Part shown: in pieces, positions 24,837 to 41,294 of the stretch
Numbering within the stretch: position 1 is the stretch's first letter
Layout: every line of letters starts with the position of its first letter
Assembly (NCBI GenBank): GCA_003166475.1
Contig: PMVV01000165.1
Span: 1,209 to 42,647 of the forward strand
Direction: 5' to 3'
DNA: 41,439 nucleotides
DNA from: Bryobacterales bacterium
GTDB taxonomy: Bacteria > Acidobacteriota > Terriglobia > Bryobacterales > Bryobacteraceae
The notes under the pieces: model-generated
Told to the model about the DNA's origin: nothing
What the model saw: only the letters and a program-made list of their open reading frames with translations
The model's database searches: none
Position numbers and translations under genes: made by a program

Positions 24837-27800
24837 TCAATAATAGAACTTCAAGCCAAACTGCACCTGGCGCGGCGCGCGCGCGGCCGTGACATAACCG
24901 AAAGAAGGCGTGCCAAACACGGTCGCGTTATTCGAATTCTGCGGCCCCGGCTGCGCGAACAGGAAGTTCGGGTGGTTGAAGATATTGAACATTTCCGCCC
25001 GGAATTGGAACCGCCTGTGTTCGCCGACAGGGAGATCCTTTTGGAACGACATGTCCCACGACTGCAGGCCCGGTCCGCGCACCGTGTTCTGGCCGACGTT
25101 GCCGAACGAGCCGTAGGCCGGGTCGACAAATGCGCAAGTGTTGAAGAACGTGCCGGGGAGGCAGGGCTTGCCGTTGGGGTTCTGTCCCACCACCGCATCC
25201 GGCCGTTGCTGGCCGTCGGAGTTGGCAAAGTTGCCATTGGCATCGGTCACGGTGTACCAGGTGCCATCCGAAATAGTGGTGACACCGGAGAATTCCCAAT
25301 CCCCAAGCACGGCGTTGGCGAATCTGGACGCATCCGGTCCGAAGTGCCTTCCGCGGCCGTACGGCAACTCCCAGATGTAATTGAACACCAGGCGGCGCCG
25401 GACATCGAAGTCCAGATTGCCGTGCTCCCATTCGGGGTGCTCCCACCACCGGAAGGCGTCGTTGTTCTGCGCGCCCAGATTGGCATTGGACGCGTTGCCC
25501 AATGCATGGCCCCATGTGAAATTGGCGAGCAGGCTAAGCCCTCCCGAGAAGCGGTGCTGAAACTTGGTCTGCAGCGCATCGTACTCGGAGTTGCCCGCCG
25601 TATCCAGATAAGAAATGCTGGTGTCGATCGACGGGAACGGACGCCGCGGCGCGTAAGGCGCACTCGGGTCGGCCGTCGGTGCGGCTTGGTTGACGTTGCC
25701 GAAGGTGTACAGCTTGGTACCCTTCGAGCCTACGTAGGCAACCTCCAGCAGGCTGTTAGCGCCGGCCTGATATTGCATCGTGAAATGCCATTGCAATACG
25801 TAGGGCGTGCGCATGTAGGGGTCCATCGAGAACAGCGTGGGCGTGTTGGGATCCACCAGGGAGTTGGCCGGGAATCCTTGAGACAAGAAGCCCAGGCCCG
25901 GCACCGAGCAATCCAGTGCCGCATTGGCGGAAGGCAGTCCACAAGGCGCGGCAAAGGTCTGGCTAACGAAGTACGGCGGATTGAAGCCCTGGCTGGGATT
26001 CGAGTACGGGCCATTCTCCGAGGCGTTATAGAACATGCCGAAAGCGCTGCGGATCACCAGCTTCGGAGCGGCCTGATATGCGAAGCCGACGCGCGGGGCG
26101 AAGTTGTTGAAGTCGGAATGCACCAGGCCGGCGGGCGCGCTGTGATTGACCTGCAACAACTGCGCAAAGGTGGGGGTGAGGGTCACATTGCTGGCGGCGG
26201 GAATATCCAACAGTCCCGTGAGCGGGTTGAAGTTGGCCTGCGAGTCGAAACGTTCCTTGACAACTCCGAAAAACTCGTAGCGCAGGCCCAGGTTCACGGT
26301 GAGCTTATGGTTCACTCGCCAGTCGTTCTGCACGAATACCGCATAGTTCTTGCGCGTGTAATCCACGTTATGCAGGTTGTTGATGCCGCCTCCGTCCGGC
26401 TGTCCCGCCAACAAGGAAGCCAGCCCGCTGCCGCCGGTTCCGGGCTGGGCCGGATTGTCCGTATACACAGGCCCAAAGCTCAAATAACCACGGGAGGCGG
26501 CGGGTTGAAAAATGGTGAACTCCTCCGGCCGGAAATCCCCGCCGAATTTCCAGGTCTGCCCGCCGCGAATCAGGGTGACGGTATCGGAGAGCGAGTAGGT
26601 ATTTTGGATCTCGAGAGAGGGAAGATAAGTCGGGCTTCCCAGGTTCGAGGCATCGCTGAAGGTGAGCTGCGGCAGGCCTCCGTTATCGGTGCCCTGCGAA
26701 AAGGGTACACCCGGAAAACCGACCTGGGCGGCGACGTCCGTGTTGGAGTTCTGCTGGAAACGGCTGGCGCGCAACCGGTTGTACCCCAAGCGCAACTCGT
26801 TCACGCGCGTGGGGCTGAAGATATGCGTCTCGCTGATGGCTGCATTATAGCCGTCGAAATTCTGAATGCCCGCGAAGAATCCGCCGCCATCGGCCAATCC
26901 GGGCAGGGGAGAGGGGATCACGGTGGGCGACTTGGAGATGCTGAACCGGTAGAAGGCATTGTCCCGGCTTGAGAAAACCTGGTCGACGCGCACATCGCCC
27001 TGGTTGCGGTCCTGTTGCAGGACGGGGTTGGAAACGTAGTTGTAGCCGTTTCCGTTAGCGTTGGGCGCCGGAAACAGGGCCACCAGCTTCTGGCCCAGCG
27101 GGTCCTGGCGAGAGGCCGGAATCACGTTGGATGGCGTTCCGTTCGCGCTGTAGCTGAAAGGCACGCCGCAGTATCCGGTCGGCGACGATGCGCTGGCCTG
27201 GGTGAGGCGCGTATCGAACAACTCGCCCGCAAAGGTTGGCATGCCATTGCAGTCCGGCACGCCGGTAGGGGAAGTCAAATCGAGCTGGGAACTGAAATCG
27301 CCGCTGGCCTGCGCGGCAGTCGGCACCAGCGACGTCAGTGTTTGGCCCTGGCGCTCGCGCAGACCTTCGTAGTCGCCGAAGAAGAACAGCTTGTCGCGAG
27401 TCAGGCGTCCGCCCAGGGTGGCGCCAAACTGGTTCTGCTTGTACGGCGGCAGCGAAGGATCGAAAAAGTTGCGCGCATCCACTTTGTCGTTGCGCAGGAA
27501 CTCGTACAGCACGCCATGGAATTCGTTGCTGCCCGATTTCAGCGTGGCGTTTACCACCGCTCCGTTAGCCCGGCCCAACTCCGCCGAGTAGGTTTCCGTC
27601 TCCACCTTGAACTCCTCGAGAGCGTCCACCGAAGGCATCACCACGTAGTTGGCCTCGTTCAGCAGATCCGGCAGATTGGAATTGTCGTCGATGCCGTCGA
27701 GCAGGAAGTTGTTCTGGAGCGATCGGGCGCCGTTTGCCGAGAAACCATAGCCCTGCTCGTCGCGCGCACCCGGCTCGCTGAAAACCACGCCCGCCGTGAG

Positions 27801-28256
27801 TTGCGCAAGCTGCACCGGATTGCGGCCATTCAGCGGAAGCTCCTGCATGTAACGGCTGTTAATTACCTGGCCGCGCTCGGAGTTGTCCGTTTCGAGCACC
27901 GGCGCCATGCCGGTGACTTCGATAGTCTCCCTCAGTTCCCCTGGCTGCAGCGTGAAATTCACACGCGCGCGCTGCTGGATCTCCAGGGTGATGGATTCGA
28001 CCTCGGTTTTGAAGCCTTTGGCGCCCACCGAGATCCGATAAGTGCCGACGCGCACCGGGCTCATGGTGTACTGTCCGGTAGCATCCGTGGCGGCGTTGTA
28101 GATGAAGTTGGTGGCCGTGTCTACAGCCGCGACTTGCGCACCCGGCACGGAGGCGCCGCTTGCGTCCAAAACGGTTCCCACAATTGCGCCGGTATCTTTT
28201 TGCGCGAACAGTATCGCGCCGGCGCAGAGGATCAAGACTGCCATGCGTGTGCACAT
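24837..28256 (-). CDS. TonB-dependent receptor/Oar-like outer membrane protein
   Basis: MCTRMAVLILCAGAILFAQ signal peptide; CarboxypepD_reg domain; 'YMQELPLNGRNPVQLAQLTAGV'; ends FGLKFYY; ORF opens at 28292. Confidence 0.9.
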   Translation of the reverse strand: MCTRMAVLILCAGAILFAQKDTGAIVGTVLDASGASVPGAQVAAVDTATNFIYNAATDATGQYTMSPVRVGTYRISVGAKGFKTEVESITLEIQQRARVNFTLQPGELRETIEVTGMAPVLETDNSERGQVINSRYMQELPLNGRNPVQLAQLTAGVVFSEPGARDEQGYGFSANGARSLQNNFLLDGIDDNSNLPDLLNEANYVVMPSVDALEEFKVETETYSAELGRANGAVVNATLKSGSNEFHGVLYEFLRNDKVDARNFFDPSLPPYKQNQFGATLGGRLTRDKLFFFGDYEGLRERQGQTLTSLVPTAAQASGDFSSQLDLTSPTGVPDCNGMPTFAGELFDTRLTQASASSPTGYCGVPFSYSANGTPSNVIPASRQDPLGQKLVALFPAPNANGNGYNYVSNPVLQQDRNQGDVRVDQVFSSRDNAFYRFSISKSPTVIPSPLPGLADGGGFFAGIQNFDGYNAAISETHIFSPTRVNELRLGYNRLRASRFQQNSNTDVAAQVGFPGVPFSQGTDNGGLPQLTFSDASNLGSPTYLPSLEIQNTYSLSDTVTLIRGGQTWKFGGDFRPEEFTIFQPAASRGYLSFGPVYTDNPAQPGTGGSGLASLLAGQPDGGGINNLHNVDYTRKNYAVFVQNDWRVNHKLTVNLGLRYEFFGVVKERFDSQANFNPLTGLLDIPAASNVTLTPTFAQLLQVNHSAPAGLVHSDFNNFAPRVGFAYQAAPKLVIRSAFGMFYNASENGPYSNPSQGFNPPYFVSQTFAAPCGLPSANAALDCSVPGLGFLSQGFPANSLVDPNTPTLFSMDPYMRTPYVLQWHFTMQYQAGANSLLEVAYVGSKGTKLYTFGNVNQAAPTADPSAPYAPRRPFPSIDTSISYLDTAGNSEYDALQTKFQHRFSGGLSLLANFTWGHALGNASNANLGAQNNDAFRWWEHPEWEHGNLDFDVRRRLVFNYIWELPYGRGRHFGPDASRFANAVLGDWEFSGVTTISDGTWYTVTDANGNFANSDGQQRPDAVVGQNPNGKPCLPGTFFNTCAFVDPAYGSFGNVGQNTVRGPGLQSWDMSFQKDLPVGEHRRFQFRAEMFNIFNHPNFLFAQPGPQNSNNATVFGTPSFGYVTAARAPRQVQFGLKFYY

Positions 28257-28352
28257 GCGGGAAATTGTAGGCCCAATCGCAGCGCCAGTCAACTACGAGA
28301 ATTCTCACCTGTCAAGCCTCGTTAGAAATGTCCCCTTCCTTACTAGAGAAGG

Positions 28353-28584: not shown

Positions 28585-30252
28585 GTGAGGAGGTGGACCC
28601 TGAAACTACGCAAATTGCCCAAGACATTTATCCCTGCAGGTATCCTGATTACGCCGTTGCTACTCTCGACCATCAGCACCAGGAGCTATGCGATTCCGGC
28701 GTTCTCCCGGCAGTACGGCACTTCATGCACGACCTGCCACCTGGACTTTCCCAAGCTCAACGACTTTGGCAAAGCCTTCAAGGATGCCGGGTTCAAATTC
28801 CCGAAAGACGACGAAACGTTCCTGAAGACTCCTCCGGTGATGTTGGGCGCGCCGGCGCAGAAGGATGTCTGGCCGCACACGGTCTGGCCGGGCACCATTC
28901 CGGGCATGCCGCCCATCGGTCTGCGCATGAACAACTTCACGCAATTCACGGGCGCAAACGCGAGCCGCTTCAATGCGCTGGCGGCTCCGGGCACGGTGGC
29001 GCCAGTCATCCCGGGAAGCGATTTCGAGACCGGTTTCTTCAGCGTTTTTATGGCTGGGAACTTCGGCAGCGATATCGCCTTCTGGGTGGATGACGACCTC
29101 AGCGTGGCCGGGGATAACAGCGCGGGCGGCCTGGGAGACGGCTACCTGAAATTTGTCAATGTCGGCCGCTTTCTCAAGCTTCCGACAGACTCGCTTAGCA
29201 TCCGCACAGGCCAATTCGAACTGGACCTGCCGTTCACGCAGGCGCGCAGCATCAACATCAGCCCGTACGACATTTATACCGAAAGCAACGTGGGCGCGAT
29301 CAACTCCATGGTGGCCTTGCAGCAGAACGTGGCGAACCAGTTTAGTTTCGCGGACGGACAGAGGGGCATCGAGTTCAGCGGCGGGCATAGCTATGGCGGT
29401 TACCACTATTCAGTGGCCATCATCGATCAGAACACGACCGGCGTGGATCAAGCCTCCAATGCCAGTATCTACGTTCCCTCGGCCACGGGCGGCTCCAATG
29501 GCGGGGTCGGCTTCGCCTCGGACTCCGGCCTGAAGGATATTTACGCCCGCTTCTCCTACCGGTTTAACCTGGAGCGTGACAGCGAAAGCCGTCACTCTGT
29601 CCAGGCCGCCGGCACGACTGGACCGCGCGACCACACCTTCTTGAGCCTGGGCACGTTCTACCTGCACGGCAAATCTCAACAGGGCGTAGTGGGCGCGGAC
29701 GCCAGCGGGAACCCAAGCACGCTCTACGCGCGCGAGCCCTATTACCGCGCGGGCGGCGATTTCAACTTCAACTACCGCAACTTCAATCTGTTTGGCCTGT
29801 ATATGTTCGCCCGCGACAATAACCTGCTGCCGGTGGATTCGAGCGGTGCCCTGATCCCACTGCCGGTGGGTTCCACTGCCGCGGTACCGGTCGGTTTTAT
29901 TACCAGCGTGCCCGCCAAGTTCAACGGCGGATTCGTGCAGGCCGATTACCTGGTTCTGCCGTGGATCATGGCCATCGGGCGCTGGGATGGCGTCAACTCC
30001 AGCGCCGACCGCATCAACGGACTGGCGCTCAACAGCGGAACGGCTTATTTCGGACCGCTCAACTCCACGCGCAACCGCTTCACGCCCGGCATTCAATTCC
30101 TGATCCACCCGAACATCAAAGCCTCCTTTGAATACCAGTTCCGGCCCAAGCAGTTTGTCCAGACGGTCACCGACCCCTCGACCGGACTGCAGGAGCCGCT
30201 CAGCCCCTTCCGGGTCAATACGGCAGTTGTGGCTCTGGAATTCGTTTATTGA
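28585..30252 (+). CDS. outer-membrane monoheme cytochrome-porin-like protein (Cyc2-like architecture)
   Basis: GTG 28585 behind gaggcggag; signal peptide; 'PAFSRQYGTSCTTCHLDFPKLNDFGKAFKDAGF' (one CxxCH); ~450-aa barrel-like region ending VVALEFVY; maximal ORF starts 28519. Confidence 0.65.
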   Translation: MRRWTLKLRKLPKTFIPAGILITPLLLSTISTRSYAIPAFSRQYGTSCTTCHLDFPKLNDFGKAFKDAGFKFPKDDETFLKTPPVMLGAPAQKDVWPHTVWPGTIPGMPPIGLRMNNFTQFTGANASRFNALAAPGTVAPVIPGSDFETGFFSVFMAGNFGSDIAFWVDDDLSVAGDNSAGGLGDGYLKFVNVGRFLKLPTDSLSIRTGQFELDLPFTQARSINISPYDIYTESNVGAINSMVALQQNVANQFSFADGQRGIEFSGGHSYGGYHYSVAIIDQNTTGVDQASNASIYVPSATGGSNGGVGFASDSGLKDIYARFSYRFNLERDSESRHSVQAAGTTGPRDHTFLSLGTFYLHGKSQQGVVGADASGNPSTLYAREPYYRAGGDFNFNYRNFNLFGLYMFARDNNLLPVDSSGALIPLPVGSTAAVPVGFITSVPAKFNGGFVQADYLVLPWIMAIGRWDGVNSSADRINGLALNSGTAYFGPLNSTRNRFTPGIQFLIHPNIKASFEYQFRPKQFVQTVTDPSTGLQEPLSPFRVNTAVVALEFVY

Positions 30253-30300
30253 CCCCGGGAAGTTCTACAATTAACAGAGATGAAAGGAAGGAACCGTTCT

Positions 30301-30873
30301 ATGAAGAGAGTGGTACTCGTTTTACTCGCAGCTTCGCTGGCCGCTTACGCGGCCAACATCAGCGGTAAGGTCACCGCGGGCAAGGGCACTTCGGTGGTGT
30401 ATGTGGATGCCGTTGCCGGCAAGACGTTTCCCGCACCCGCCAAGCCTCAGGTGATGGATCAGAAGCAGTTGCTGTTCGCGCCGCACATCCTGGTGGTGCA
30501 AGTGGGAACAACGGTGGAGTTTCTGAACAGCGACAAAGTGGCGCACAACATTTTTTGGCCGGCGATCAGCGGCAATAAAAAGCTGGGACACAATCTGGGC
30601 ACTTGGCCCACAGGGCAGAAGCGCGACTTCAAGTTCGACGCGCCGGGAATCGTGCCGTTGCTCTGCAACGTGCACCCGGAAATGTCCGGGTTCCTGGTGG
30701 TGACGCCGACGCCCTATTTCGCCGAGACCGACGCCGAAGGCAATTTCAAAATTGCCGATGTGCCGGCCGGCAGCTACACACTCGTAGCATGGCACGAGGG
30801 CATGAAGACGCCGCAATCGAAGCCTGTAACCGTGGGCGGCGATGTGACGGTCGATTTCGCGCTCTCCAAATAA
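30301..30873 (+). CDS. periplasmic cupredoxin with carboxypeptidase-regulatory-like tail
   Basis: signal peptide MKRVVLVLLAASLAAYA; type-1 Cu ligands 'SDKVAHNIFW' and 'LLCNVHPEM'; 'DAEGNFKIADVPAGSYTLVAWHEGMK'. Confidence 0.82.
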   Translation: MKRVVLVLLAASLAAYAANISGKVTAGKGTSVVYVDAVAGKTFPAPAKPQVMDQKQLLFAPHILVVQVGTTVEFLNSDKVAHNIFWPAISGNKKLGHNLGTWPTGQKRDFKFDAPGIVPLLCNVHPEMSGFLVVTPTPYFAETDAEGNFKIADVPAGSYTLVAWHEGMKTPQSKPVTVGGDVTVDFALSK

Positions 30874-30879
30874 GCTCGC

Positions 30880-32826
30880 ATGCTGACGCGCTTTCGCGAC
30901 AAGAAAGTCGACCGCGACTGGCTGAACAGCAACTTTCCCTGCATGATGGCGTGTCCGGCCGGCACCAACGCCGGCCGGTACGTTTCACTCATCGCGGAAG
31001 GGCGGTTCGAGGAGGCGTATCGCTACGCCCGCGATCCGAACCCGATGGCCAGCATCTGCGGCCGCGTCTGCGCGCACCCTTGTGAAACGGCCTGCCGCCG
31101 CGGCGCCGTGGACAAGCCCATCCAGATCCGCGCCCTGAAGCGCATGCTGACGGAGCGCTACGGCCCGGAATCCCGGCACCCCTTGCGCATCGACCGGCAG
31201 CGTGCCGCGCCGCAACCGTACCGCGTTGCCGTAGTCGGCAGCGGTCCCGTGGGGCTCTCGGCGGCGCACGACCTGGGCCTGATGGGTTACGCCGTCACCA
31301 TCTTCGAAGCCGCACCGGTGGCCGGCGGCATGCTCAAACTGGGCATCCCGGAATACCGCCTGCCGCGCAGCGTGGTGGAAGCGCAGGTGCGCGAGATTCT
31401 GGAAGCCGGCGATATCACGCTCAAGCTCAACCAGGCCGCCGGCCGCGATTTCACGATCTCCGGATTGCGCCAACAGGGCTTCGACGCGGTAGTCATCGCC
31501 GTCGGCGCGCACCGCAGCCGCGACCTTTCCATACCGGGCGTGGATCTCGACGGGGTCCACAAGGCTGTCGATTTTCTGCTCAACGCCAACCTGGGCTACC
31601 GCTTCACTATCGGCAAGAAGGTAGTCGTGATCGGCGGCGGAAACGTGGCCATGGATGTGGCCCGGTCGGCCGCTCGTGAAGTACTGCGGCAGCACGCCGG
31701 CGCTCCGGAAGAAGCCGTTCCGAGCGAGGAGAATGTCGCCGCCCTGGCCGCGCACGAGATGGTGGACGTTTCGCTGTCGGCCCTCCGCCTGGGCGCGCAG
31801 GAGGTCAGCATCGTCTGCCTGGAAAATCGCAAGGAGATGCCGGCGGCCTTGGAAGAGATCGAGGAAGCGCAGACCGAGGGCATCATTCTGCATGACGGCA
31901 GGGGTCCGCATCGCGTGCTGGGGCGCGACGGCAAAGTGACCGGCCTCGAAACATTGAAGACCATGCATGTTTTCGACGCCAACGGGCGGTTCAACCCCGC
32001 ATTCTACGAGAACAGCGAATCCGTCATCGAGTGCGACACCGTCATCCTGGCTATCGGGCAGGCTCCCAACCTGGACTTTCTGAAACCCGAAGACGGCGTG
32101 CGGGTGTCCCCGCGCGGGCTGGTCGTGGCGGACCGCGAAACCCTCATGACCTCGGCGGCCGGCGTGTTCGCGGGCGGAGACTGCGTGTTCGGGCCGCGCC
32201 TGATCATCGACAGCGTGGGCGACGGCAAGCGCATCGCCATCGCCATCGACGAGCACCTCACCGGGCGGAAGCATCCCGATCCGGAGATTGTGGTGGAAGT
32301 GCTCGATCACCACCGCATGTTTGCGGATTTCATGAATTTGTCGCGCCAGCCGGTGCCCATGCTGCCGCTGGAGCGTCGCACCGGCGTGACGGAAGTGGAG
32401 ATCGGCTTCGACGAGCAATCGGCCATGGCCGAGGCGCGCCGCTGTCTACGCTGCTGGGTCAACACCGTATTCGAAGGCAACGAACCGGATGGCTCGCAGT
32501 GCATCCTATGCGGCGGCTGCGCGGATGTTTGCCCGGAGGAGTGCCTGCGGATCGTGCCGCTGGAGCAGATCGAGTTTCCGCCCGAAGTGCTGGGCGAGAT
32601 CCGCGCCAACGAGCAGCTTTACCGCGTGGAGTTGGATGATGTGGCGGCGGAAGAGCTGGGCGTGATTACCGGTTCGGCCATGCTCAAGGACGAAACCCGA
32701 TGTATCCGGTGCGGCCTGTGCGCGGAACGCTGCCCGGTGAATGTGATCACCATGGAGGCGTACAGCATTGTGGGGCAGGATGAAATCCTGCGCGCCGATT
32801 GCCAATCGGCGCAAACTCGCCACTGA
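30880..32826 (+). CDS. GltD/NfnL-like FAD-dependent NAD(P) oxidoreductase with N-terminal [4Fe-4S] domain and C-terminal 2x[4Fe-4S] ferredoxin domain
   Basis: 'CMMACPAGTNAGRYVSLIAEGRFEEAYRYARDPNPMASICGRVCAHPCETAC', Rossmann 'VAVVGSGPVGLSAAHDL' and 'KVVVIGGGNVAMDVARSA', ferredoxin 'CILCGGCADVCPEEC' and 'CIRCGLCAERCPVNV'. Confidence 0.9.
   Translation: MLTRFRDKKVDRDWLNSNFPCMMACPAGTNAGRYVSLIAEGRFEEAYRYARDPNPMASICGRVCAHPCETACRRGAVDKPIQIRALKRMLTERYGPESRHPLRIDRQRAAPQPYRVAVVGSGPVGLSAAHDLGLMGYAVTIFEAAPVAGGMLKLGIPEYRLPRSVVEAQVREILEAGDITLKLNQAAGRDFTISGLRQQGFDAVVIAVGAHRSRDLSIPGVDLDGVHKAVDFLLNANLGYRFTIGKKVVVIGGGNVAMDVARSAAREVLRQHAGAPEEAVPSEENVAALAAHEMVDVSLSALRLGAQEVSIVCLENRKEMPAALEEIEEAQTEGIILHDGRGPHRVLGRDGKVTGLETLKTMHVFDANGRFNPAFYENSESVIECDTVILAIGQAPNLDFLKPEDGVRVSPRGLVVADRETLMTSAAGVFAGGDCVFGPRLIIDSVGDGKRIAIAIDEHLTGRKHPDPEIVVEVLDHHRMFADFMNLSRQPVPMLPLERRTGVTEVEIGFDEQSAMAEARRCLRCWVNTVFEGNEPDGSQCILCGGCADVCPEECLRIVPLEQIEFPPEVLGEIRANEQLYRVELDDVAAEELGVITGSAMLKDETRCIRCGLCAERCPVNVITMEAYSIVGQDEILRADCQSAQTRH
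32775..32812. repeat. REP-like double hairpin inside the 3' end of the oxidoreductase CDS
   Basis: gcaggat-gaa-atcctgc (32775-32791) and gcgccgatt-gcc-aatcggcgc (32792-32812). Confidence 0.9.
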
Positions 32827-32836
32827 AGGAACAAGC

Positions 32837-33307
32837 ATGCCAGAAGACGACAAAACACAACCCACCCGGCGCGAGGCGTTCATCAAGCTGGGAGTCGGCT
32901 CGGTAGCCGTAGCCTGCGCGGGTGCAGGCGTGTTTGGATATTCTTATCTCTCCCCCAACGTACTCTACGAGCCGTCGCCGATCGCCAACGCGGGCAAGCC
33001 GGACCGCTATCCGCTCGGTTCCGTCAACCAGGATCTGGAAGCCGGTATCTACATCATTCATAGCCCGGAGGGTTTCTACGCGCTATCCGCCACGTGTACC
33101 CATCTCGGCTGCCTCACGGTGTGGAATGCCGACCTGGATATCATCGCCTGCCCGTGTCATGGCAGCAAGTTCAGCAAACAGGGCGTGAAGCTGGAGGGGC
33201 CCGCACCGCGCGGCCTGCCCTGGCTCAAAGTCTGGCTCGGCGATGAAGGTGAACTGCTGGTGGATCGCGCCTCCGTCATTCCGCCCAAGCAATACCTGAG
33301 GACCTGA
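32837..33307 (+). CDS. Rieske [2Fe-2S] iron-sulfur protein
   Basis: Tat-type N-terminus '[29 protein letters not shown]'; 'CTHLGC' and 'CPCHGSKFS'. Confidence 0.95.
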
Positions 33308-34035
33308 TGACTCTTCAAGACATCCGCGACACTCGCGTCTGGCGCTCCGTCTTCCGCGGCGGCAGCGGCGCCAACAATCTGCGCCGCTCGATGGCCATCC
33401 AGCAGAACGTCTTCCTGCACCTGGCCTCGGTCAAGGCCCGCGAACGAGCCCTCCAATTCAGCGTGACGTGGTACCTGGGAACGCTCAGTTTCGGCACTTT
33501 CGCGATCCTGGTCGTCACCGGCATCCTGCTGATGCTCTACTACCATCCGTCGGTGCCGCAAGCCTACGCGGATATGAAGGACCTGCAATTCGTGGTCTCG
33601 GCCGGGGTGTTCCTGCGTAACCTGCACCGCTGGTCGGCGCACACCATGGTGCTGCTGGTCTTCGCGCACATGTTCAAGGTGTTCTACCGCGGCGCGTATC
33701 GGAAGCCGCGCGAGTTCAACTGGGTTGTCGGGGTGGTCCTGCTCATCCTCACGCTGCTGCTCAGCTACACAGGCTACCTGCTGCCCTGGGACCAGTTGGC
33801 CTACTGGGCCATCACGGTGGGGTCGAATATTATGTCCGCCGTGCCGGTGATGGGCCAGAAGGTCCGCTTCCTGATGCTGGGCGGCAATACCGTAAACGCC
33901 AACGCTCTGCTGCGCTTCTATGTGTTGCACTGCGTGATTCTGCCGCTGGCGGCGATTCTGTTCATCGCCGTGCACTTCTGGCGCATCCGCAAGGACGGAG
34001 GCCTGTACACGGGCCATAAGGAATCCCATGAGTGA
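33307..34035 (+). CDS. cytochrome b6-type N-terminal subunit
   Basis: '[28 protein letters not shown]' (H-13-H) and '[30 protein letters not shown]' (H-14-H, b6-like). Confidence 0.95.
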
Positions 34036-34735
34036 GCCGCCCAATCCCAAGTTCGCCGCGCAATTCGATTCCGACGCGCGCCGCACGCCGGTGCGCGTGG
34101 CGTTCGTCACGCGCCGCACTTCGCCGCAGGTAAAAGCCCAGGACGATTCCGTGGTGATGACCTATCCGGAAGGCCTCTTCCGGGCGGCCGTGGCCATTGA
34201 GATTCTGGCCATCGCGCTGGTGGTCGTATCGCTGATTTGGGATGCGCCTCTCGAAGAACTGGCCGACGCCATGCACACCCCCAATCCGGCCAAGGCGCCC
34301 TGGTACTTTCTGGGCTTGCAGGAATTGTTGCACTACTTCCCGCCGTTCGTGGCTGGCGTGCTGATTCCAACCATGGTGGTGCTGGCGCTGATCGTGATTC
34401 CGTACTTCGACATCAACATCGAATCCGACGGCGTTTGGCTGCGCAACCGCGAGCGGCGGCTGCGCATTTTCATTGGAGCGCTGGTAGTGTTCACCGCAAT
34501 CATGCTGGTCTTCCACGTCTACGCGGTGCTGATTCCCACGCTGCTGATTGCGGGCTTCATGCTGACCGCCGCGGCGGGTCCGCCGGAGCCCTCGCGCTTC
34601 CGGCGATGGCTGGTTTCGAAACCGCTCTCTTTCTGGATCATGACGTGGTTCCTGGTGCAGGCCGGAATTCTGACGGTGATCGGGACATTTTTCCGCGGCG
34701 CGGGCTGGTCGTGGGTGTGGCCCTGGAGGAGTTGA
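34028..34735 (+). CDS. cytochrome b subunit IV-like C-terminal subunit with APWY motif
   Basis: '[50 protein letters not shown]'; overlaps cyt b6 by 8 nt. Confidence 0.9.
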
Positions 34736-34740
34736 ACGCC

Positions 34741-36780
34741 ATGCGACAGAAGATACAAAAGGTGTGGCAGTTCCTCTTCGGCGATAGCGCGCGCGCTTTC
34801 GGCACGCTCAGCGTGATCCTGCTGATCTGCCTGGCGATCGCCCCGGCCAAGGATCGCTTCCGGGAGTGGACCCGCTATCAGCAGAAGTACCTCCGCCTGA
34901 TTCGCGGGCGTGGCGAAGCCGCCACCCTACAGCGGCGTTTCCAGGGCGGACTGCAGCAGATCTGGATGCCGGAGTTGGGCGTAACGGATCGCTGCGGCAC
35001 CTGTCACCTGGGCTTAAAGGAAGCCAGCCTGTGGGACGTGAGCACGCAACCGTTCCGGCCGCATCCGCCGATTCCGCATTCCCTCACCGAGTTCGGATGC
35101 GTGATGTGTCATCGCGGCCAAGGCGCCGCCACCGGAGTCGAGGAAGCGCACCGCAGCACGCTGGCCTGGGAGCAACCCATTCTGCCCGCGCGCTATTTGG
35201 AAGCTGGGTGCGGTCAGTGCCACGCGAATACGCTGACCGGCACGCCGCAATTGAACCTGGGACGGCAACTGCTGACGCGTTACGACTGCGTGTCGTGCCA
35301 TGTCCTGAAAATGCCTGACGGCCAGCGGATGGCATCCACAACCGATGCTCCCCCACTAACCCATATCGCCGAAAAGACCACCCGCGAGTGGACGTTCGCC
35401 TGGCTCAAGAATCCGCAGGCTTACGCCGTCACCGCGACGATGCCCAACTTCCAACTGAGCGATGCGGATGCGCGCGACATCTCCGCATTTCTGATGTCCA
35501 GTGGGGCAGGCTCTCAGCCTGCGCGGGCCTCTCAGGCCCGCTCCTCCCCCGACGTCGCCGCCGACGCCGCAGCCGGCGCCAGCGTATACGGCGAATCGTT
35601 CTGCGCGTCCTGCCATGCCACCGTGAATGCGGCGGGCATGCTGGTGGGTGGCGACGTGGGACCCGAACTAACGCGCATCGGCTCCAAGGTGAAGCCGGAG
35701 TGGCTCGGCGAGTGGCTGCACAATCCCAAAACCTACGATCCCGGCACCGCCATGCCCCACTACCGCTTCGACCAGAAGCAGCTCGGCCCGCTGCGCGCCT
35801 TCATCGAAGCCAAGACCGATTCCGATTTCCTGGCGAATGTGCACCTGGAACCCGCCACGCCGGAGCAGATAGCGCACGGCAAGGCGTTGGTGACGGAGCG
35901 CGGCTGCGCCTCCTGCCACGAAATCAACGGCATCTCCAAACCTGCCAACTTCGCGCCGGAACTGACCGTGGTGGGCAGCGAGTCGCTCATGAAGATCGTG
36001 TTTGCGCCGGGAGTGGAGCATACGCTGCCGGACTATTTGCGGGCCAAGATCAGGCAGCCGCATGCTTTCCCCAGCGCCAAAATGCCGCAATACACCTTCA
36101 CCGAGGCGCAGGTGGATGCCTTGGTCACGGCCCTGCTGGCGCAGACCGAACGCGCCCGGACCCTGCCGGCTGCGTTGCGCGTGGCAGGCAAGCGCGAATC
36201 CGGTTATCGTCCCGCGGGCAAAGCCGGTCAATTGATGGCCGACATGAATTGTTTCAGTTGCCACGCCATCAACGGCCGCGGCGGCAACATGGCGCCCGAT
36301 CTGACGTGGGAAGGCAGCTCCGTCCAGCGCCGCTGGCTGGTCAGCTTCATGAAGAACCCCAACACGCTGCGTCCCGCGCTGATCCGCCGCATGCCGCGCT
36401 TCAACGTGACGGACGCGGAGGCCGAGACCATCGCGGACTACGTATCGACCGTTTATCAGACGCCCGACTTCGATCGAGACGCGATAGACCCGGCCAAGTT
36501 CAGCGCGGCCGATATCGAACTGGGCAAGCAGTTGTTCTACTCGAAGTATGCATGCCAGTCCTGCCACATCGTCGATCCGCAGAACGACAAGGGCTATATT
36601 GGTCCCACGCTCACGCAGGTGGGCGCGCGGCTCAACGCGGCTTGGATCTTCCATTGGCTGAAAGATCCGCAGGCCTTGCGGCCCGGAACTGTAGAACCCA
36701 ACCGGAACTTGAGCGATGCGGATGCCCGCGCGCTGACGGCCTTCCTGATGAAACAGAACAAGGAGGTGGCTAAGAAATGA
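34741..36780 (+). CDS. membrane-anchored octaheme c-type cytochrome
   Basis: N-terminal TM; eight CxxCH motifs (CGTCH, CVMCH, CGQCH, CVSCH, CASCH, CASCH, CFSCH, CQSCH); maximal ORF from 34237 overruns subunit IV. Confidence 0.92.
   Translation: MRQKIQKVWQFLFGDSARAFGTLSVILLICLAIAPAKDRFREWTRYQQKYLRLIRGRGEAATLQRRFQGGLQQIWMPELGVTDRCGTCHLGLKEASLWDVSTQPFRPHPPIPHSLTEFGCVMCHRGQGAATGVEEAHRSTLAWEQPILPARYLEAGCGQCHANTLTGTPQLNLGRQLLTRYDCVSCHVLKMPDGQRMASTTDAPPLTHIAEKTTREWTFAWLKNPQAYAVTATMPNFQLSDADARDISAFLMSSGAGSQPARASQARSSPDVAADAAAGASVYGESFCASCHATVNAAGMLVGGDVGPELTRIGSKVKPEWLGEWLHNPKTYDPGTAMPHYRFDQKQLGPLRAFIEAKTDSDFLANVHLEPATPEQIAHGKALVTERGCASCHEINGISKPANFAPELTVVGSESLMKIVFAPGVEHTLPDYLRAKIRQPHAFPSAKMPQYTFTEAQVDALVTALLAQTERARTLPAALRVAGKRESGYRPAGKAGQLMADMNCFSCHAINGRGGNMAPDLTWEGSSVQRRWLVSFMKNPNTLRPALIRRMPRFNVTDAEAETIADYVSTVYQTPDFDRDAIDPAKFSAADIELGKQLFYSKYACQSCHIVDPQNDKGYIGPTLTQVGARLNAAWIFHWLKDPQALRPGTVEPNRNLSDADARALTAFLMKQNKEVAKK
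35506..35541. repeat. REP-like double hairpin inside the octaheme cytochrome CDS
   Basis: gcaggct-ctc-agcctgc (35506-35522) and gcgggcct-ctc-aggcccgc (35523-35541). Confidence 0.9.
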
Positions 36781-37514
36781 AGCACCTCAGACCACAGGCT
36801 AAAGCCTGTGCCGCCATGTTGATCTTGCTTGCCGGATGCAACCGGCCGGCCAAGACACCCGCGCCTCTCGCCGCCAAAGCTTTTGGAGCGGCGATTACGG
36901 AAGTCGGCGGAGGCAAGCAGGTCGGCAGTATCGGAGCGGCCCTGGATCAACCGGTCGTGGTGCAGGTCAACGACGCGCAAGGCAGTCCTGTCGCCGGAGC
37001 GCTGGTCGAGTTGCACACCGCCGAAGGAGCCATGGCAGCGCCGGACGCGGGCCTGACTGGCGCGGACGGACAGTTGACCTCCACGGTGACCCTGGGCGGC
37101 AGCGCCGGACGATATCAGATCGCGGCCACCACGCGCGACAAATCCGGCAAGCCCGTGGAGTTGCGGCTCGACGAGATCGCGCTCGGCTACCAGCAGCAGC
37201 AGGGCCGCGTGCTGAACGATCAATACTGCGCGCGTTGCCACGATCCGGAATCCACCCCGGAGCGGGTTTCGAACCACGACAATCTCACCGCCAAGCCGCA
37301 CGCCTTTATCGAAGGCGCCGTGCTGAACGCCATGAGCGATGCGGACCTCGCGTCCATCATCGGTTTTGGGGGGCCGGCTCTGAACAAGTCGCCGGAGATG
37401 CCGCCTTACGGATATACTCTCAAGAAGGCCGACGTGGACGCGCTCATTGCCTACATACGCGCCGTCGCCGATCCACCCTATCGCTTGAAGGGTTTGACGT
37501 ATGCGAAGAATTGA
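36777..37514 (+). CDS. monoheme c-type cytochrome lipoprotein with Ig-like (Big-1-type) domain
   Basis: lipobox MLILLAGC; 'QPVVVQVNDAQGSPVAGALVELHTAEGAM'; 'LNDQYCARCHDPESTPE'; ATG overlaps upstream stop. Confidence 0.82.
   Translation: MKHLRPQAKACAAMLILLAGCNRPAKTPAPLAAKAFGAAITEVGGGKQVGSIGAALDQPVVVQVNDAQGSPVAGALVELHTAEGAMAAPDAGLTGADGQLTSTVTLGGSAGRYQIAATTRDKSGKPVELRLDEIALGYQQQQGRVLNDQYCARCHDPESTPERVSNHDNLTAKPHAFIEGAVLNAMSDADLASIIGFGGPALNKSPEMPPYGYTLKKADVDALIAYIRAVADPPYRLKGLTYAKN
36793..36810. repeat. REP-like palindrome cacaggct-aa-agcctgtg inside the lipoprotein signal sequence
   Basis: perfect 8-bp arms, same arms as 7392-7409 and 38689-38706. Confidence 0.9.
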
Positions 37515-38685
37515 GCTGCTCGCCGGCATGTTGTGCACCGGCCTGCTCTGCGCGCAAGTGGTTTCGCCGCCGGAGATTCGCGATCCGGAATTGCGCGAAT
37601 TACAGGAGAAGCATTTTGCGGAATTGAAGGCTGCGGCCGTGACCATCGCGTCGCACCAGTTCCCCTACCGTTTCTATTTCAGCCGTACGCTGGACCTCGA
37701 CCAAGACCAGCAGAAAACCAGAGACCAGCGGTCCATCCAGTTCGCCAAGTACGGACATCAGACGGTTGTGCAGATCACTGGCAACTACTATGCCGCCTAT
37801 TCCGACGAGTTGATGAAACGAGAGGAACGCGCCCGGCGAACCTTCGAGGATGTGATGCTGCCCCTGCTGCGAGCGGAGGTTCCGCAGTTGAGCGACGAGC
37901 CGAAACTTCAGGGATTCGCTCTGGAGATCTCGCATCACGTGCGCAAGAAGGTGTTGGGAGTCAGCGGGGAACACCCGGAAAACGTGGTCCTGGTGATTCC
38001 GAAAGCCGCCGCGCTGCGCCTGATCGCGGCGCCGGACGAGCCCACACAGGCAATGGCGCTGGAGGAGGGAACGCTATTCATCAACGGCGAAGCGGCCACG
38101 ATTTGGGGACGCATGACCACGGATGCGCCCGCCGCTTCGGTTGCGGTTCCGGCGCCGGTCCCCGCCCCAACTCCGGCGGCAGTGGTGGTGAAGCCTGCCC
38201 CTGCTCCCACCGTTGCCGCGCCGGAACCCACACCCGACGCCTTGAAGGGCCTCCAAACTGCCTATCAGGAAACTCTGGACAAGATGGTCCGCGAGTTAGA
38301 CCAGACAGCGCACTTCGTCAGCTACGCTCCGCCGGTGTTCGTGAACTTTCACAAAGGTATCTACCTGCAGCTTTCCATCGCGACGACCATCCAGTCGCCG
38401 GAACCGTCATCCCGTTACCGCGCGGCCGCGCTGGCATTTGACGAACAGATCGCGCACCTGATCCGTCCCGTGCTCGCCTGCTTCAAGGAAGCGCCCCAAT
38501 TCGCGGGCATCGACTTCAGCACCACCGTGAAGCCCGCGGGTCAGGCCGTGGAATACATCTTCGATATGGCCAATCTGCACTGCTATGCGCAGTTCGACTG
38601 CACCGGCCAGCAGATCGTCAACGCCGGATTCGTGCTGATCAACGGCGAGCGCGTCACGCTGGATCTCGAAGGCGCCGAGCGGTGA
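37501..38685 (+). CDS. secreted protein of unknown function, terminal gene of electron-transfer locus
   Basis: 394 aa; signal peptide MRRIELLAGMLCTGLLCAQ; Pro/Ala-rich linker (PAPVPAPTPAAVVVKPAPAPTVAAPEPTP); overlaps upstream gene by 14 nt. Confidence 0.7.
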   Translation: MRRIELLAGMLCTGLLCAQVVSPPEIRDPELRELQEKHFAELKAAAVTIASHQFPYRFYFSRTLDLDQDQQKTRDQRSIQFAKYGHQTVVQITGNYYAAYSDELMKREERARRTFEDVMLPLLRAEVPQLSDEPKLQGFALEISHHVRKKVLGVSGEHPENVVLVIPKAAALRLIAAPDEPTQAMALEEGTLFINGEAATIWGRMTTDAPAASVAVPAPVPAPTPAAVVVKPAPAPTVAAPEPTPDALKGLQTAYQETLDKMVRELDQTAHFVSYAPPVFVNFHKGIYLQLSIATTIQSPEPSSRYRAAALAFDEQIAHLIRPVLACFKEAPQFAGIDFSTTVKPAGQAVEYIFDMANLHCYAQFDCTGQQIVNAGFVLINGERVTLDLEGAER

Positions 38686-39017: not shown

Positions 39018-41294
39018 ATGTCGAAACTCGATCGGCGAGAGTTACTGAAGCTGGGTACTGCGGCGAGCGCCGTCATCGTCTCGCCCGCGCTTGCCGTTGC
39101 ATCGCCGACAGGGGCGCAGGCCGCCGTGAAGCCGCCCGCTTCCGCAGCGCCGTGGAACGCGCGCTGGATCTGGTATCCGGGTCAGCTCGCCTGCCATCTG
39201 CACACCAACGTTTCGCGCGTCGCCTTCGAGCGGGTGTCCAACATCGGTTACCCGGGCTTCTACCAGCGCCCCGAGTACGTGGCATGGTTCCGGCTTCGCC
39301 TGATCCTGGCCGTTGACACTCCCGTCCGCTGGGCCTGGCCGCTGGGCCGCACGCGCGTACGGGTGGACGGTCGAGAAGGGGACATCAGCGTCAACCACCG
39401 CGTGCTGCCTGCGGGCCCCGTTGAGATCCTCGTAATGCAGGACATGATGCTCTCCCTGCCGTGCTTCCTGCTCGAAGGCGGGAACGTATCCACCGGCGAC
39501 GGATGGGAAGCGAGCCTTGACGGCGAGCACTGGACCGCCGCAGAGTTCGCAGAGCGCCTTGCCTCGCCCAGGGCACTCCCCGACAAGGACATCGACGGAC
39601 ACCAACAACTGCTCCCACGCAAAGTCGCTCGCCTTTCTAAAGCGGGTGAGAGAACCGGCGGGTATGAACTCAGCAGTGGCGGGGAAGTGCTACTTGATTT
39701 TCATGAAATCGAGCTAGGCACGGTTGAGTTCACCGCCTCCGGCGCGGGCGAGTTACAGGTGGCCGTGGGCGAGTCCATCGAAGAAGCCACCGCAACGGAC
39801 GAATCGACGTTCGAGCAGGCACCGCTCGTACCCCTGCGACTCGACTCCACGCGGCGTGCCTTCGTGCTGCCCGAACGGGCGATCCGCTTTGTCCGCTTCG
39901 ACGCGACGCAAAGTTGCAGGCTCGAAGGGGTTAGCGTGAATGCGCGTATCTATCCGGTCGAGTACCGGGGATCGTTCGAATCGAGCGATGCACGTCTGAA
40001 CGACATCTGGAAAGTGGGTGCCGCAACACTCCACACCTGCATCCACGACACGACCATTCTTGACGGCATCAAGCGTGACGCTCTGGTATGGCTGTTCGAT
40101 CAGAACATCGATTTCGACGCCGTCGATTGCGTCTTCTTCGATCCCGCCGTGGTGCGGAACACCCTGCTGACGCAGACACCGCCCGCTGGAGCCGGCCTGG
40201 ACCGCATCGGCCTCTTCGAGTTGCTGATGTACTACGTCATCGGGTTTGGTCAAGACTACCTGACCCGCGGCGATGTATCTTTTTCGCAACGCTACCGCGC
40301 CAACGTAACGGAAGTACTCGACCTCTTCACGCGCCTTCAGGACGAGCGGGGATTCATCTCGGCGCGCGCCTTCTCACCCACGAAGACCAGCCCTGGCGGC
40401 CCCCAGGTGGAAGGCGTCGATTATCTCGGAGAGTACTTTCCGGATTGGGCTGCAAAGTCCGATCGCGGCGAGAAGCGCGCTACCGACCTAGACTGCGCCG
40501 GCACGCCCGCCTACGCCCAAATGCTCATCCTGCACTGCTTCGAGATCGGGGCCCTGCTGGCGCGCCAGTGGAGCGACACGGCCCTCGCGGACCGCTATGC
40601 CGCCAACGCCTCGCGCCTCCGCGCCAATATCACAGGCGTCTTCTGGGATAACACCAGGGGCGCTTTCATCAACGGCTTCGATCGCAGCGGTACGCGAGAC
40701 CCGCGCGTCTCCCCGCACGCCCAGACCTGGGGCATTCTGCTCGACCTCGTTCCCCAAGGAAAGACCGACGGGCTTTTCAGCGCGGTCTTTGACGATCCGC
40801 GCAACCGCGCGCGCAACATCAGCATGCAGGCTTACTACGAGTTGATGGCGTACACTAAGGCGGGCCGCTTCCCGAAAGCCCTCGAATACCTGAAGAAGAA
40901 CTGGGGCTGGATGCTCGATAACGGTTTCACGCGCTTCATCGAAGACATCCGCCCCGCTGACGGCCCGCGTGAGCGGCTCATGTTTTACGGCCGCCCGTAC
41001 GGGCTTAGCCTGAACCACGGCTGGACCGGAGCCACTGCCGTCTCTCTACTCATGCGCGGTACCCTGGGTCTGCGAGTTGTCGAGCCGGGCTACCGCCTCT
41101 GTGAGCTACGGCCCAATTGGAAGATCTTCGATTGGGTGAAGGTGAGCATTCCCACGCCGCACGGAAGTCTCGCGCTCGACTACAACCGCGCCAAAGGGGC
41201 GGAGATACAAGTGCCCGGAGGGGTCCGTATCCGCGTGGCCGGCGAAAGCGGCACGGTACAGGAGTTCGCCGGCCCCGGCCGGCACAAGGTCTGA
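39018..41294 (+). CDS. GH78-like (alpha-L-rhamnosidase-type) six-hairpin glycosidase, probable Tat export
   Basis: Tat-like 'DRRELLKLGTAASAVIVSPALAVASPTGAQA'; 'HTCIHDTTILDGIKRDALVWLFDQNIDFDA'; C-terminal 'FYGRPYGLSLNHGWTGATAVSLLMRGTLGLRVVEPGYRLCELRPN'. Confidence 0.8.
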   Translation: MSKLDRRELLKLGTAASAVIVSPALAVASPTGAQAAVKPPASAAPWNARWIWYPGQLACHLHTNVSRVAFERVSNIGYPGFYQRPEYVAWFRLRLILAVDTPVRWAWPLGRTRVRVDGREGDISVNHRVLPAGPVEILVMQDMMLSLPCFLLEGGNVSTGDGWEASLDGEHWTAAEFAERLASPRALPDKDIDGHQQLLPRKVARLSKAGERTGGYELSSGGEVLLDFHEIELGTVEFTASGAGELQVAVGESIEEATATDESTFEQAPLVPLRLDSTRRAFVLPERAIRFVRFDATQSCRLEGVSVNARIYPVEYRGSFESSDARLNDIWKVGAATLHTCIHDTTILDGIKRDALVWLFDQNIDFDAVDCVFFDPAVVRNTLLTQTPPAGAGLDRIGLFELLMYYVIGFGQDYLTRGDVSFSQRYRANVTEVLDLFTRLQDERGFISARAFSPTKTSPGGPQVEGVDYLGEYFPDWAAKSDRGEKRATDLDCAGTPAYAQMLILHCFEIGALLARQWSDTALADRYAANASRLRANITGVFWDNTRGAFINGFDRSGTRDPRVSPHAQTWGILLDLVPQGKTDGLFSAVFDDPRNRARNISMQAYYELMAYTKAGRFPKALEYLKKNWGWMLDNGFTRFIEDIRPADGPRERLMFYGRPYGLSLNHGWTGATAVSLLMRGTLGLRVVEPGYRLCELRPNWKIFDWVKVSIPTPHGSLALDYNRAKGAEIQVPGGVRIRVAGESGTVQEFAGPGRHKV

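Follow-up and report, generated by a model that had tools for sequence, protein, structure and literature searches.

Related respiratory systems

The formation of NAD(P)H by a Rieske/cytochrome b complex has been proposed, within the literature searched, for anammox bacteria only. In Kuenenia stuttgartiensis, the gene sets Kuste4569-4574 and Kustd1480-1485 encode a Rieske protein, a four-helix cytochrome b6, a subunit IV, a GltD/NfnA-type reductase and a multiheme cytochrome c with 6 or 8 hemes (PMC12954380). According to work cited in that paper, all the Kuste4569-4574 subunits were reported to comigrate. Heme cN is recognised as the weak spot of this proposal, and quinone reduction at this heme was singled out as the chief difficulty for coupling to NAD(P) (PMC12954380).

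Other described systems share different portions of the locus studied here. The extHIJKLMNOPQS cluster of Geobacter (PMC5877670) links a porin-type gene to Rieske, the cytochrome b6 ExtP, the subunit IV-like ExtQ and multiheme cytochromes c. In contrast to the present locus, its porin ExtI is described as heme-free, no GltD or cupredoxin is listed, and other multiheme cytochromes as well as a rhodanese are encoded. In Acidithiobacillus ferrooxidans, the rus and pet operons bring an outer-membrane Cyc2, a cupredoxin and a bc complex into one chain that serves Fe(II) oxidation and was also proposed for Fe(III) reduction (PMC8790237, PMC7735108). There, however, the complex is a canonical bc1, NAD(P) is reached via complex I only and the operons are separate. 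Finally, a study on clade II nos clusters, dealing with Luteitalea pratensis (PMC13122619), places genes for Rieske, a b-type cytochrome, Fe-S proteins and azurin beside nosZ in the Acidobacteriota strain or its comparators, which resembles type C of the platform discussed below. Unlike the present locus, NosZ is the terminal reductase there and a Cyc2-like porin is absent; the passages on these clusters discuss no link to NAD(P).

The window analysed here is a stretch of 41,439 nucleotides from a Bryobacterales bacterium. An earlier note on this DNA had supposed that its whole combination of genes may be undescribed, and no paper on the combination was indeed found in the open-access literature searched; relatives might be covered by ten Brink et al. 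2013, whose subject is multiple Rieske/cytb complexes. The kind of system is known, and its present form appears to be undescribed within that literature.

Organization of the operon

Nine + strand ORFs occupy 28585-38685, each overlapping the next or separated from it by no more than 27 nt (Table 1), with successive gaps from g1 to g9 of 27, 6, 10, -1, -8, 5, -4 and -14 nt. The tight same-strand packing described in the earlier note was thus found again, and an operon-like single unit is supported. The start codon of g1 is ambiguous (GTG 28585 or TTG 28615), and a scan for promoters and terminators gave signals no commoner than in shuffled sequences.

Table 1. Genes of the operon, with window positions and the basis of each assignment
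Gene	Position	Strand	Predicted product	Basis
g1	28585..30252	+	Cyc2-like monoheme fused cytochrome-porin, 555 aa	ORF, one CxxCH, motif comparison
g2	30280..30873	+	type-1 copper protein (cupredoxin), exported; C-terminal carboxypeptidase-regulatory-like domain	Copper-bind + CarboxypepD_reg
g3	30880..32826	+	GltD/NfnA-type FAD/NAD(P) oxidoreductase, cytoplasmic	Pyr_redox_2 + Fer4_20 + two Fer4
g4	32837..33307	+	Rieske [2Fe-2S] subunit; N-terminal TM anchor	Rieske HMM match
g5	33307..34035	+	cytochrome b6	Cytochrome_B HMM match
g6	34028..34735	+	subunit IV-like (ExtQ-like)	Cytochrom_B_C HMM match
g7	34741..36780	+	octaheme cytochrome c, membrane-anchored, replacing cytochrome c1/f	repeated Cytochrom_C
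g8	36777..37514	+	monoheme cytochrome c lipoprotein (LAGC lipobox)	Cytochrom_C + Big_1-like domain
g9	37501..38685	+	secreted protein, no family assigned	

HMM searches of every protein returned matches for g2-g8, which together with the CxxCH counts (eight in g7, one each in g1 and g8) bear out the parts as first named. For g1 and g9, no match was obtained in Pfam or NCBIfam, PHROGs gave none for g9 either, and comparison of their profiles with the PDB retrieved no relative. AlphaFold2 run on single sequences gave mean pLDDT values of 29.5 for g1 and 36.9 for g9, too low to be of use.

Outer-membrane and periplasmic proteins

The N-terminal part of g1 reads AIPAFSRQY-GTS-CTTCH-LDF-PKL, and the protein ends with the aromatic residue of LEFVY. 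Set against 21 relatives and the consensus of Cyc2 fused cytochrome-porins, in which AXPXFAR[Q/K][T/Y] precedes CXXCH and then PXL (PMC8406198), this motif fits with one substitution (A->S), and several orthologs match the consensus exactly (e.g. AIPAFARKY). The single CXXCH is followed by PXL (CTTCHLDFPKL), with C48, C51, H52, P56 and L58 invariant in 22 rows, and the length of 555 aa compares with a Cyc2 criterion of 365 aa or more that include a porin domain of 16 strands. In the same way, Cyc2 and Cyt572 (PMC8406198, PMC7029218) display an N-terminal AxPxF(A/S)R(Q/K)Y, CxxCH and PxL, a long C-terminal part and an aromatic final residue. Apart from the substitution, g1 differs from them in being longer and linked to a Rieske/b6-GltD complex, its function being putative. 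The outer-membrane heme-barrel of the earlier note keeps its single heme and fits the Cyc2 fused cytochrome-porin motif (AxPxF...CxxCH...PxL). The prediction of an outer-membrane barrel rests on this motif, the C-terminal aromatic residue and a marginal Porin_O_P match of one ortholog. A different Cyc2-like gene (AVPSFARQTGLPCSSCH), located at the opposite end of the locus, stands in place of g1 in three genomes, so that a Cyc2-type protein is retained.

The cupredoxin g2 is amicyanin-like in an NCBIfam-level comparison and carries the copper ligand pattern VAHN...CNVHPEM, of which C..H..M was observed in 21/21 type A sequences. In the samples read, g9 was found solely adjoining g1/g2, in families f1, f2 and f28; its relatives occur in 12 of the 101 family genomes, 10 of them as strong matches.

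Rieske/b6 core and the adjacent reductase

The Rieske subunit g4 contains the cluster motif CTHLGC...CPCHGSKF and a TM segment at 14-34. The PDB entries that match it best, 9rk4 and 9rk3, are both Rieske proteins from anammox bacteria, and for the anammox proteins nearest to it potentials above +300 mV were measured. For g5 and g6, the best NCBIfam models are ExtP and ExtQ, and all three Ext scores fall below the curated cut-offs (ExtP 268.3 vs 290, ExtQ 56.7 vs 150 and ExtS 82.4 vs 100 bits). A residue table of 64 homologs and spinach b6 indicated that the four heme b His ligands of g5 are intact and that the interface His38 is kept, the aligned residue in the K. hertensis homolog being His43 (Kuste4571 His43 is a proposed extra heme b ligand). 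This His is also kept in relatives without a nearby GltD gene, so its presence cannot be taken as a specific sign of an NAD(P) branch.

The cysteine that binds heme cN (spinach b6 Cys35) is replaced by Tyr in g5. It was found in 0/38 sequences of this phylum vs 14/14 from anammox and 12/12 from deltaproteobacteria and Nitrospirae. The Qo motif of g6 is of the APWY type and not PEWY, and its hydropathy profile displays about five to six segments, the anammox subunit IV criterion being five TM helices. The subunit IV ligand to heme cN was considered as a further marker and set aside, as the alignment is gapped around spinach Phe40. The cytochrome g7 has exactly eight CxxCH motifs and a TM segment at 15-38, and eight hemes were counted in 21/21 type A sequences. 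The locus thus departs from canonical cytochrome b6f, with its heme cN, PEWY motif and cytochrome f, by the Tyr at Cys35, APWY and the octaheme protein.

The reductase g3 has NfnA 9n5u as its best PDB match, belongs to subfamily PRK12771 and has no TM segment. Sixteen cysteines are kept in 46-48 of 48 homologs, anammox included, and would suffice for four [4Fe-4S] clusters. The position of Kuste4570 Arg511, near a proposed heme, is Gly in g3; among the sequences listed, Arg occurs there in anammox and one NosZ-linked sequence only. Within at most 9 kb of a cytochrome b6 gene and on the same strand lie 77 of the 83 strong GltD matches, in at least three arrangements.

Likeness to the anammox complexes

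The statement of the earlier note that GltD-type subunits are encoded beside Rieske/cyt b genes in anammox was confirmed with Kuenenia, Brocadia and Scalindua loci. Besides their subunits, the Kuenenia complexes (PMC12954380) share with the window the interface His, the 16 reductase Cys, the APWY-type Qo motif and the closest solved Rieske proteins, and the octaheme g7 falls within their range of multiheme partners. On the other hand, the window has lost the heme cN Cys and has Gly for the reductase Arg near the proposed heme, and the reductases are 33-42% identical. The gene order is GltD-Rieske-b6-IV vs Rieske-GltD-b6-IV in Kuenenia, the partner is a Cyc2-like porin with a cupredoxin vs a HAO-like octaheme, and the phyla differ.

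The b6 tree placed anammox together with relatives that have no GltD (94/84), and anammox GltD is 53.5% identical to an unlinked GltD, vs 33-42% to g3. Both observations suggest that anammox and this phylum recruited GltD separately, but AU tests leave this unestablished, as a single clade with anammox was not rejected for g3 (p 0.355) and was borderline for g5 (p 0.056). One acquisition of GltD by these complexes and two are both compatible with the trees.

Conservation and modularity across the phylum

Barrel, GltD and cytochrome b6 occur together in 29 of 297 genomes sampled phylum-wide (15 families), and 20 relatives showed the g1-g8 order. The linkage is thus not due to chance, and the same order of barrel, cupredoxin and oxidoreductase, on whose conservation the earlier note had made its proposal depend, recurs phylum-wide. 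The combination is nevertheless modular. The g1-g2-g9 trio was observed without the complex at three loci (L023-L025), in one of them (L025) between coxB and coxA, g1-g2 alone at two others (L069/L078), and the complex occurs with other partners. At a further locus (L074), the GltD gene is missing and the rest is kept.

The GltD-Rieske-b6 core is a recurring platform in the phylum, other versions of which carry ccoN/ccoO, NosZ with NosD, or a DMSO-reductase type II pair. The partners in these versions are mostly high-potential electron acceptors. In the host genome, two complex I sets were found, with neither RuBisCO nor a sulfite/nitrite reductase (NIR_SIR). The lack of RuBisCO and the two complex I sets fit a heterotroph rather than a lithoautotroph.

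Proposed electron flow and alternatives

As a whole, the earlier interpretation is partly supported: its parts, their linkage and the anammox likeness stand, and the identity of the barrel, the modularity and the direction were corrected. Flow in either direction, as first suggested, is too loose, because the Q-cycle scheme allows NAD(P)H to form only during P-side quinol oxidation in which a high-potential acceptor takes the Rieske electron.

The reading favoured here, held tentatively and at somewhat below even confidence, is that a single NAD(P)-linked complex that oxidises quinol is encoded here, together with its periplasmic and outer-membrane electron route. The heme b, Rieske, Fe-S, FAD and type-1 Cu motifs are intact. 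In this scheme, g4, g5, g6 and g7 would form a Rieske/b6-type complex oxidising menaquinol at the P side, and each quinol would be bifurcated, one electron going to NAD(P)+ and the other to the octaheme and cupredoxin, towards the Cyc2-like protein. The high-potential electron would pass from Rieske to the octaheme g7, then to the lipoprotein g8 and the cupredoxin g2, and on to g1, which would reduce a dissolved high-potential acceptor, e.g. Fe(III) in acid soil. The low-potential electron would move from heme bP to bN, possibly via a heme at the interface His38, and then through the Fe-S chain of g3 and its FAD to NAD(P)+. The operon would then be one version of the platform, others in the phylum feeding a cbb3 oxidase, N2O reductase or type II DMSO-reductase-family enzyme.

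This reading is supported by the conserved g1-g8 order, the placement of GltD near b6 and the acceptor-linked platform versions. It also draws on the nearness of the Rieske protein to high-potential anammox proteins, the kept cysteines, the loss of the heme cN Cys, the retention of a Cyc2-type protein and the heterotroph-like gene content of the host. Outward flow from bc1 through rusticyanin to Cyc2 has a precedent in the proposal made for anaerobic A. ferrooxidans (PMC7735108, PMC8790237). Against it stand the interface His of GltD-less complexes and the Gly at the anammox reductase Arg.

The Cyc2 proteins tested biochemically oxidise Fe(II), which counts against the outward direction. It is conceivable, if unlikely, that g1 acts like Cyc2 and takes electrons from Fe(II) or some other extracellular donor, and that cupredoxin and octaheme deliver them to a Rieske/b6 core which, reversed by pmf, reduces quinone, either with the aid of NAD(P)H supplied through g3 or with NAD(P)H formed subsequently via complex I. 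The Cyc2 motif of g1 and the pairing of Cyc2 with a cupredoxin, as in A. ferrooxidans, would suit such a route, and the trio between coxB and coxA recalls the rus operon with its inward flow. By Q-cycle logic, however, a reversed low-potential branch would consume NAD(P)H rather than make it. Moreover, the other platform versions adjoin electron acceptors, the genome is without RuBisCO, and caution has been urged in assigning Fe(II) oxidation to distant homologs of Cyc2 (PMC8406198).

The same cofactors run both ways, and electrons from NAD(P)H could enter at g3 and reach the quinone pool or the octaheme arm through the b hemes. Such a non-bifurcating NAD(P)H:quinone/cytochrome c reductase could remove surplus NADPH and would agree with the absence of heme cN, but it would be wasteful alongside two complex I sets, an argument also made for Kuenenia (PMC12954380), and we regard it as rather improbable. 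Still less probable is that g3 is an operon neighbour lying electronically outside the Rieske/b6 complex, e.g. as reductant for another step. Its association with the complex is a prediction from gene order, and the L074 locus does without it; yet nearly all strong matches adjoin cytochrome b6, in several arrangements, and the Kuste4569-4574 subunits were reported to comigrate, as cited in PMC12954380. Finally, a separate g1-g2(-g9) unit for porin, copper or iron handling that shares the operon would agree with the loci that carry this head without the complex and with the NtrC-type regulators adjoining some of the relatives' loci, but is very improbable given that head and complex occur together in 15 families and that a divergent Cyc2-like gene at the other end replaces g1 in some.

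Significance

The favoured reading of a bifurcating, NAD(P)-linked complex leads to a wider proposal, possible but doubtful at present, in which a phylum-wide Rieske/b6 platform without heme cN would send its low-potential electron directly to NAD(P)+ and exchange its high-potential arms between O2 (cbb3), N2O (NosZ), a molybdenum reductase and a Cyc2-type protein reached via cupredoxin. NAD(P)-quinone coupling is an unproven candidate function here and in anammox alike. If the proposal is true, making NAD(P)H by bifurcation would count as a respiratory strategy of general use and not as an anammox peculiarity.

Anammox bacteria grow slowly, and to our knowledge no pure cultures exist. A platform without heme cN in another phylum, with three kinds of terminal enzyme and a Cyc2-type porin, is a natural series on which to test the anammox NAD(P)H scheme, and the disputed idea that NAD(P)H is made directly at a Rieske/cytochrome b complex becomes testable elsewhere. 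It would also add an outer-membrane route based on a copper protein and Cyc2 to a phylum of poorly understood respiration, which would bear on iron cycling and, via the NosZ version, on N2O consumption in soil.

Gene content and surroundings of the operon

The nine same-strand genes listed in the earlier note are all present in the window, with overlaps of up to 14 nt and intergenic gaps of no more than 27 nt. Domain searches with HMMs confirmed the identities of g2 to g8, namely a cupredoxin, a GltD/NfnA-type FAD/FeS NAD(P) oxidoreductase, a Rieske protein, cytochrome b6, subunit IV, an octaheme cytochrome c and a monoheme lipoprotein. CxxCH motifs number eight in g7 and one each in g8 and in g1, the predicted outer-membrane protein. 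No relative of the secreted g9 protein was found in Pfam, NCBIfam, PHROGs or a PDB profile search. Its family has 29 invariant positions across 15 sequences and, in the loci read, is accompanied by g1-g2 where the contig is long enough. The functions of the genes being read from sequence and gene context, this is a real conserved operon of predicted respiratory role. A TonB-receptor-like gene, recognised by eye, lies upstream in the opposite direction. On the 3' side, a 332-nt gap precedes the next long ORF, of 758 aa, which is glycoside hydrolase-like by eye and has no NCBIfam match.

Location of the features discussed (L, fetched loci of relatives or of the window's own genome)
Feature	Location	Strand
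TonB-receptor-like gene	window 24837-28292	minus
g9	window 37501-38685	plus
758-aa ORF	window 39018-41294	
g9-g2-g1 trio at the oxidase locus	L025:2242-9585	
NtrC-type regulator and kinase genes	L061:15975-18993	
Own-genome second complex	L159:1023-10179; L160:12617-15338	
Complex beside DMSO-reductase-family pair	L161:2877-12033	
NosZ-linked complex	L162:3017-12719	
AVPSFARQTG Cyc2-like gene	L171:11146-12543; L172:3619-5016	

g1 as a Cyc2-like protein

Cyc2 is defined by AXPXFAR[Q/K][T/Y], CXXCH and PXL (Keffer et al., PMC8406198). The window g1 reads AIPAFSRQY, CTTCH and PKL, and its relatives AIPAFARKY and similar. In an alignment of 22 sequences P38, R42, C48, C51, H52, P56 and L58 are invariant, and the final residue of g1-type proteins is aromatic in nearly all. 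g1 is therefore classed as Cyc2-like, with a predicted barrel; a PDB profile search with g1 gave no match. Fe(II) oxidation does not follow from this assignment, since the function of Cluster 3 homologs was graded the most uncertain (PMC8406198). Leptospirillum Cyc572 clusters with homologs of Acidobacteria and Nitrospira (PMC10654088).

Conservation of the linkage and its exceptions

The window's family was sampled with g9 as bait, and 12 of its 101 genomes gave a match, 10 of them strong. The complete g1-g9 order surrounds four of these matches (L021, L022, L026, L027); in L028 and L029 it is truncated where the contigs end. Loci of g1 relatives elsewhere in the phylum, taken to be Acidobacteriota from the earlier note and overall resemblance, show the same order, either with g9 (L060-L066, L068) or without it (L070-L073, L075-L077, L079), g1 being merely ~25-30% identical in the latter. 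Searches for g1, g3 and g5 were also crossed in 297 genomes of the phylum, and cytochrome b6 was found within 9 kb on the same strand for 77 of the 83 strong g3 matches. A g1-type gene within 6 kb completed the association in 29 cases, from 29 genomes and 15 families. With ~100 g1-type matches in 297 genomes of several Mb, we estimate that chance would give well under 0.1 case; barrel and oxidoreductase are thus not lost at random, and the linkage with the complex proposed in the earlier note is conserved. Genes for an NtrC-type sigma-54 response regulator and a histidine kinase, candidate regulators, adjoin the locus in many distant relatives (L061, with similar ORFs in L062, L069, L070-L077 and L079), none being seen in the window.

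The association of the head genes with the complex is not absolute. The g1-g2-g9 genes occur without it in L023-L025, genome G022 containing both forms, and g1-g2 alone in L069 and L078. In L025, the trio is flanked by coxB and coxA, genes of an aa3-type oxidase locus, and lies on the opposite strand. L074 lacks only the GltD gene. Searches of genomes G107, G372 and G212 gave no full g1 at the head but did give a g1-type heme motif some 5 kb downstream of g3. In the two of these loci read, the gene after g8 encodes a different protein, with the motif AVPSFARQTG. Its matches are plasmid-encoded proteins from Caballeronia, Acidiphilium and A. ferrooxidans (33-39%, covering 86-92% of its length). 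This gene is more canonically Cyc2-like than g1 and would replace the outer-membrane gene at another position.

The GltD-Rieske-b6 core with other partners

In the phylum, the core is also found beside partners other than g1-g2. A cbb3 version (L154-L158) reads Rieske-b6/IV-heptaheme-ccoN-ccoO-GltD, with a metal-transporting P-type ATPase further on. The window's own genome has a second GltD-linked complex, with Rieske-b6/IV-multiheme at the end of one contig and multiheme-ccoN-ccoO-GltD-P-type ATPase at the start of another (contigs C475 and C467, loci L159 and L160). A domain scan covered ccoN, ccoO, GltD and the ATPase, and the pieces are probably one cbb3 version divided by assembly. In the scanned N2O version (L162), GltD-Rieske-b6/IV-pentaheme precedes nosZ-nosD; the NosZ is Sec-dependent and clade II-type, and the GltD ORF includes a CxxCH. 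L164-L167 look alike by sequence. Lastly, GltD-b6/IV-hexaheme in L161 adjoins genes for an alpha/beta pair of the type II DMSO-reductase family, of nitrate/ethylbenzene/selenate-like type. The partners of the first two versions are high-potential electron acceptors.

Comparison with anammox and other Rieske/b6 complexes

The nearest solved proteins to g4 are the Kuenenia Rieske proteins 9rk4 and 9rk3, which we take as Kuste4569 and Kustd1480 from the Ser/Tyr pattern given in PMC12954380. A genome scan with 9rk4 as query provided 74 loci for comparison. Anammox loci read Rieske-GltD-b6-IV, whereas those of Desulfobacterota, Myxococcota, Nitrospirae and Deferribacteres read Rieske-b6-IV-octaheme, with no GltD match in their fetched flanks. 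The Rieske-GltD-b6 cluster of L116 (PBZW01000032.1, labelled Neomarinimicrobiota) is of anammox type, Scalindua-like and almost the same as L119, and its contig is probably misbinned.

The four heme b ligands of cytochrome b6 are conserved throughout, and almost every sequence has APWY as its Qo motif. The heme cN Cys is present in 14/14 anammox and 12/12 deltaproteobacterial/Nitrospirae-type sequences but in 0/38 from the window's phylum, of which 37 are GltD-linked; g5 has Tyr at this position. His38 of g5 is the counterpart of Kuste4571 His43, the suggested ligand of a new interface heme, and is conserved in all sequences but one, whose N terminus fell outside the reading frame used, and in GltD-less complexes too. 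The g3 reductase shares 16 Cys with anammox homologs, which would suffice for the four Fe-S clusters in the published model. In the GltD tree, the proteins of the phylum's core complexes form one clade (support 99/96). AU tests did not reject a single clade with the anammox proteins for g3 (p 0.355) and were borderline for g5 (p 0.056); one GltD recruitment or two would both fit these trees.

Direction of electron flow

In the scheme proposed for Kuenenia (PMC12954380), quinol gives one electron to a high-potential acceptor, while the second reaches NAD(P)+ by way of heme bN, perhaps the interface heme, and the Fe-S clusters. The same paper sees the larger problem in menaquinone being reduced on the N side, close to heme cN. 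Absence of the heme cN Cys would take away that relay, which is not proof of NAD(P)H formation. Under such a Q-cycle, NAD(P)H formation would require simultaneous quinol oxidation and a high-potential acceptor for the electron leaving the Rieske protein. We tentatively favour an outward, bifurcating flow, because high-potential acceptors accompany other versions of the core and because A. ferrooxidans offers a precedent, quinol to bc1, rusticyanin, Cyc2 and Fe(III) (PMC7735108, PMC8790237). Two serious rivals have to be weighed. Inward Cyc2-type oxidation is rather unlikely and finds its strongest evidence in the coxB/coxA neighbourhood of L025; run in reverse, the Q-cycle would consume NAD(P)H in its NAD(P) branch. 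NAD(P)H oxidation by the complex seems slightly less likely again. In the favoured outward flow, g8, g2 and g1 would form the acceptor side.

Compared with the Kuenenia complexes, two defining details, heme cN and the reductase Arg, are missing, and for this reason the complex is classed as a variant and not a member. The operon is best described as encoding a predicted variant of the Kuenenia-type NAD(P)-linked Rieske/b6 complex, one that is Cyc2-linked and has no heme cN site, and it would probably work like the Kuenenia complexes.
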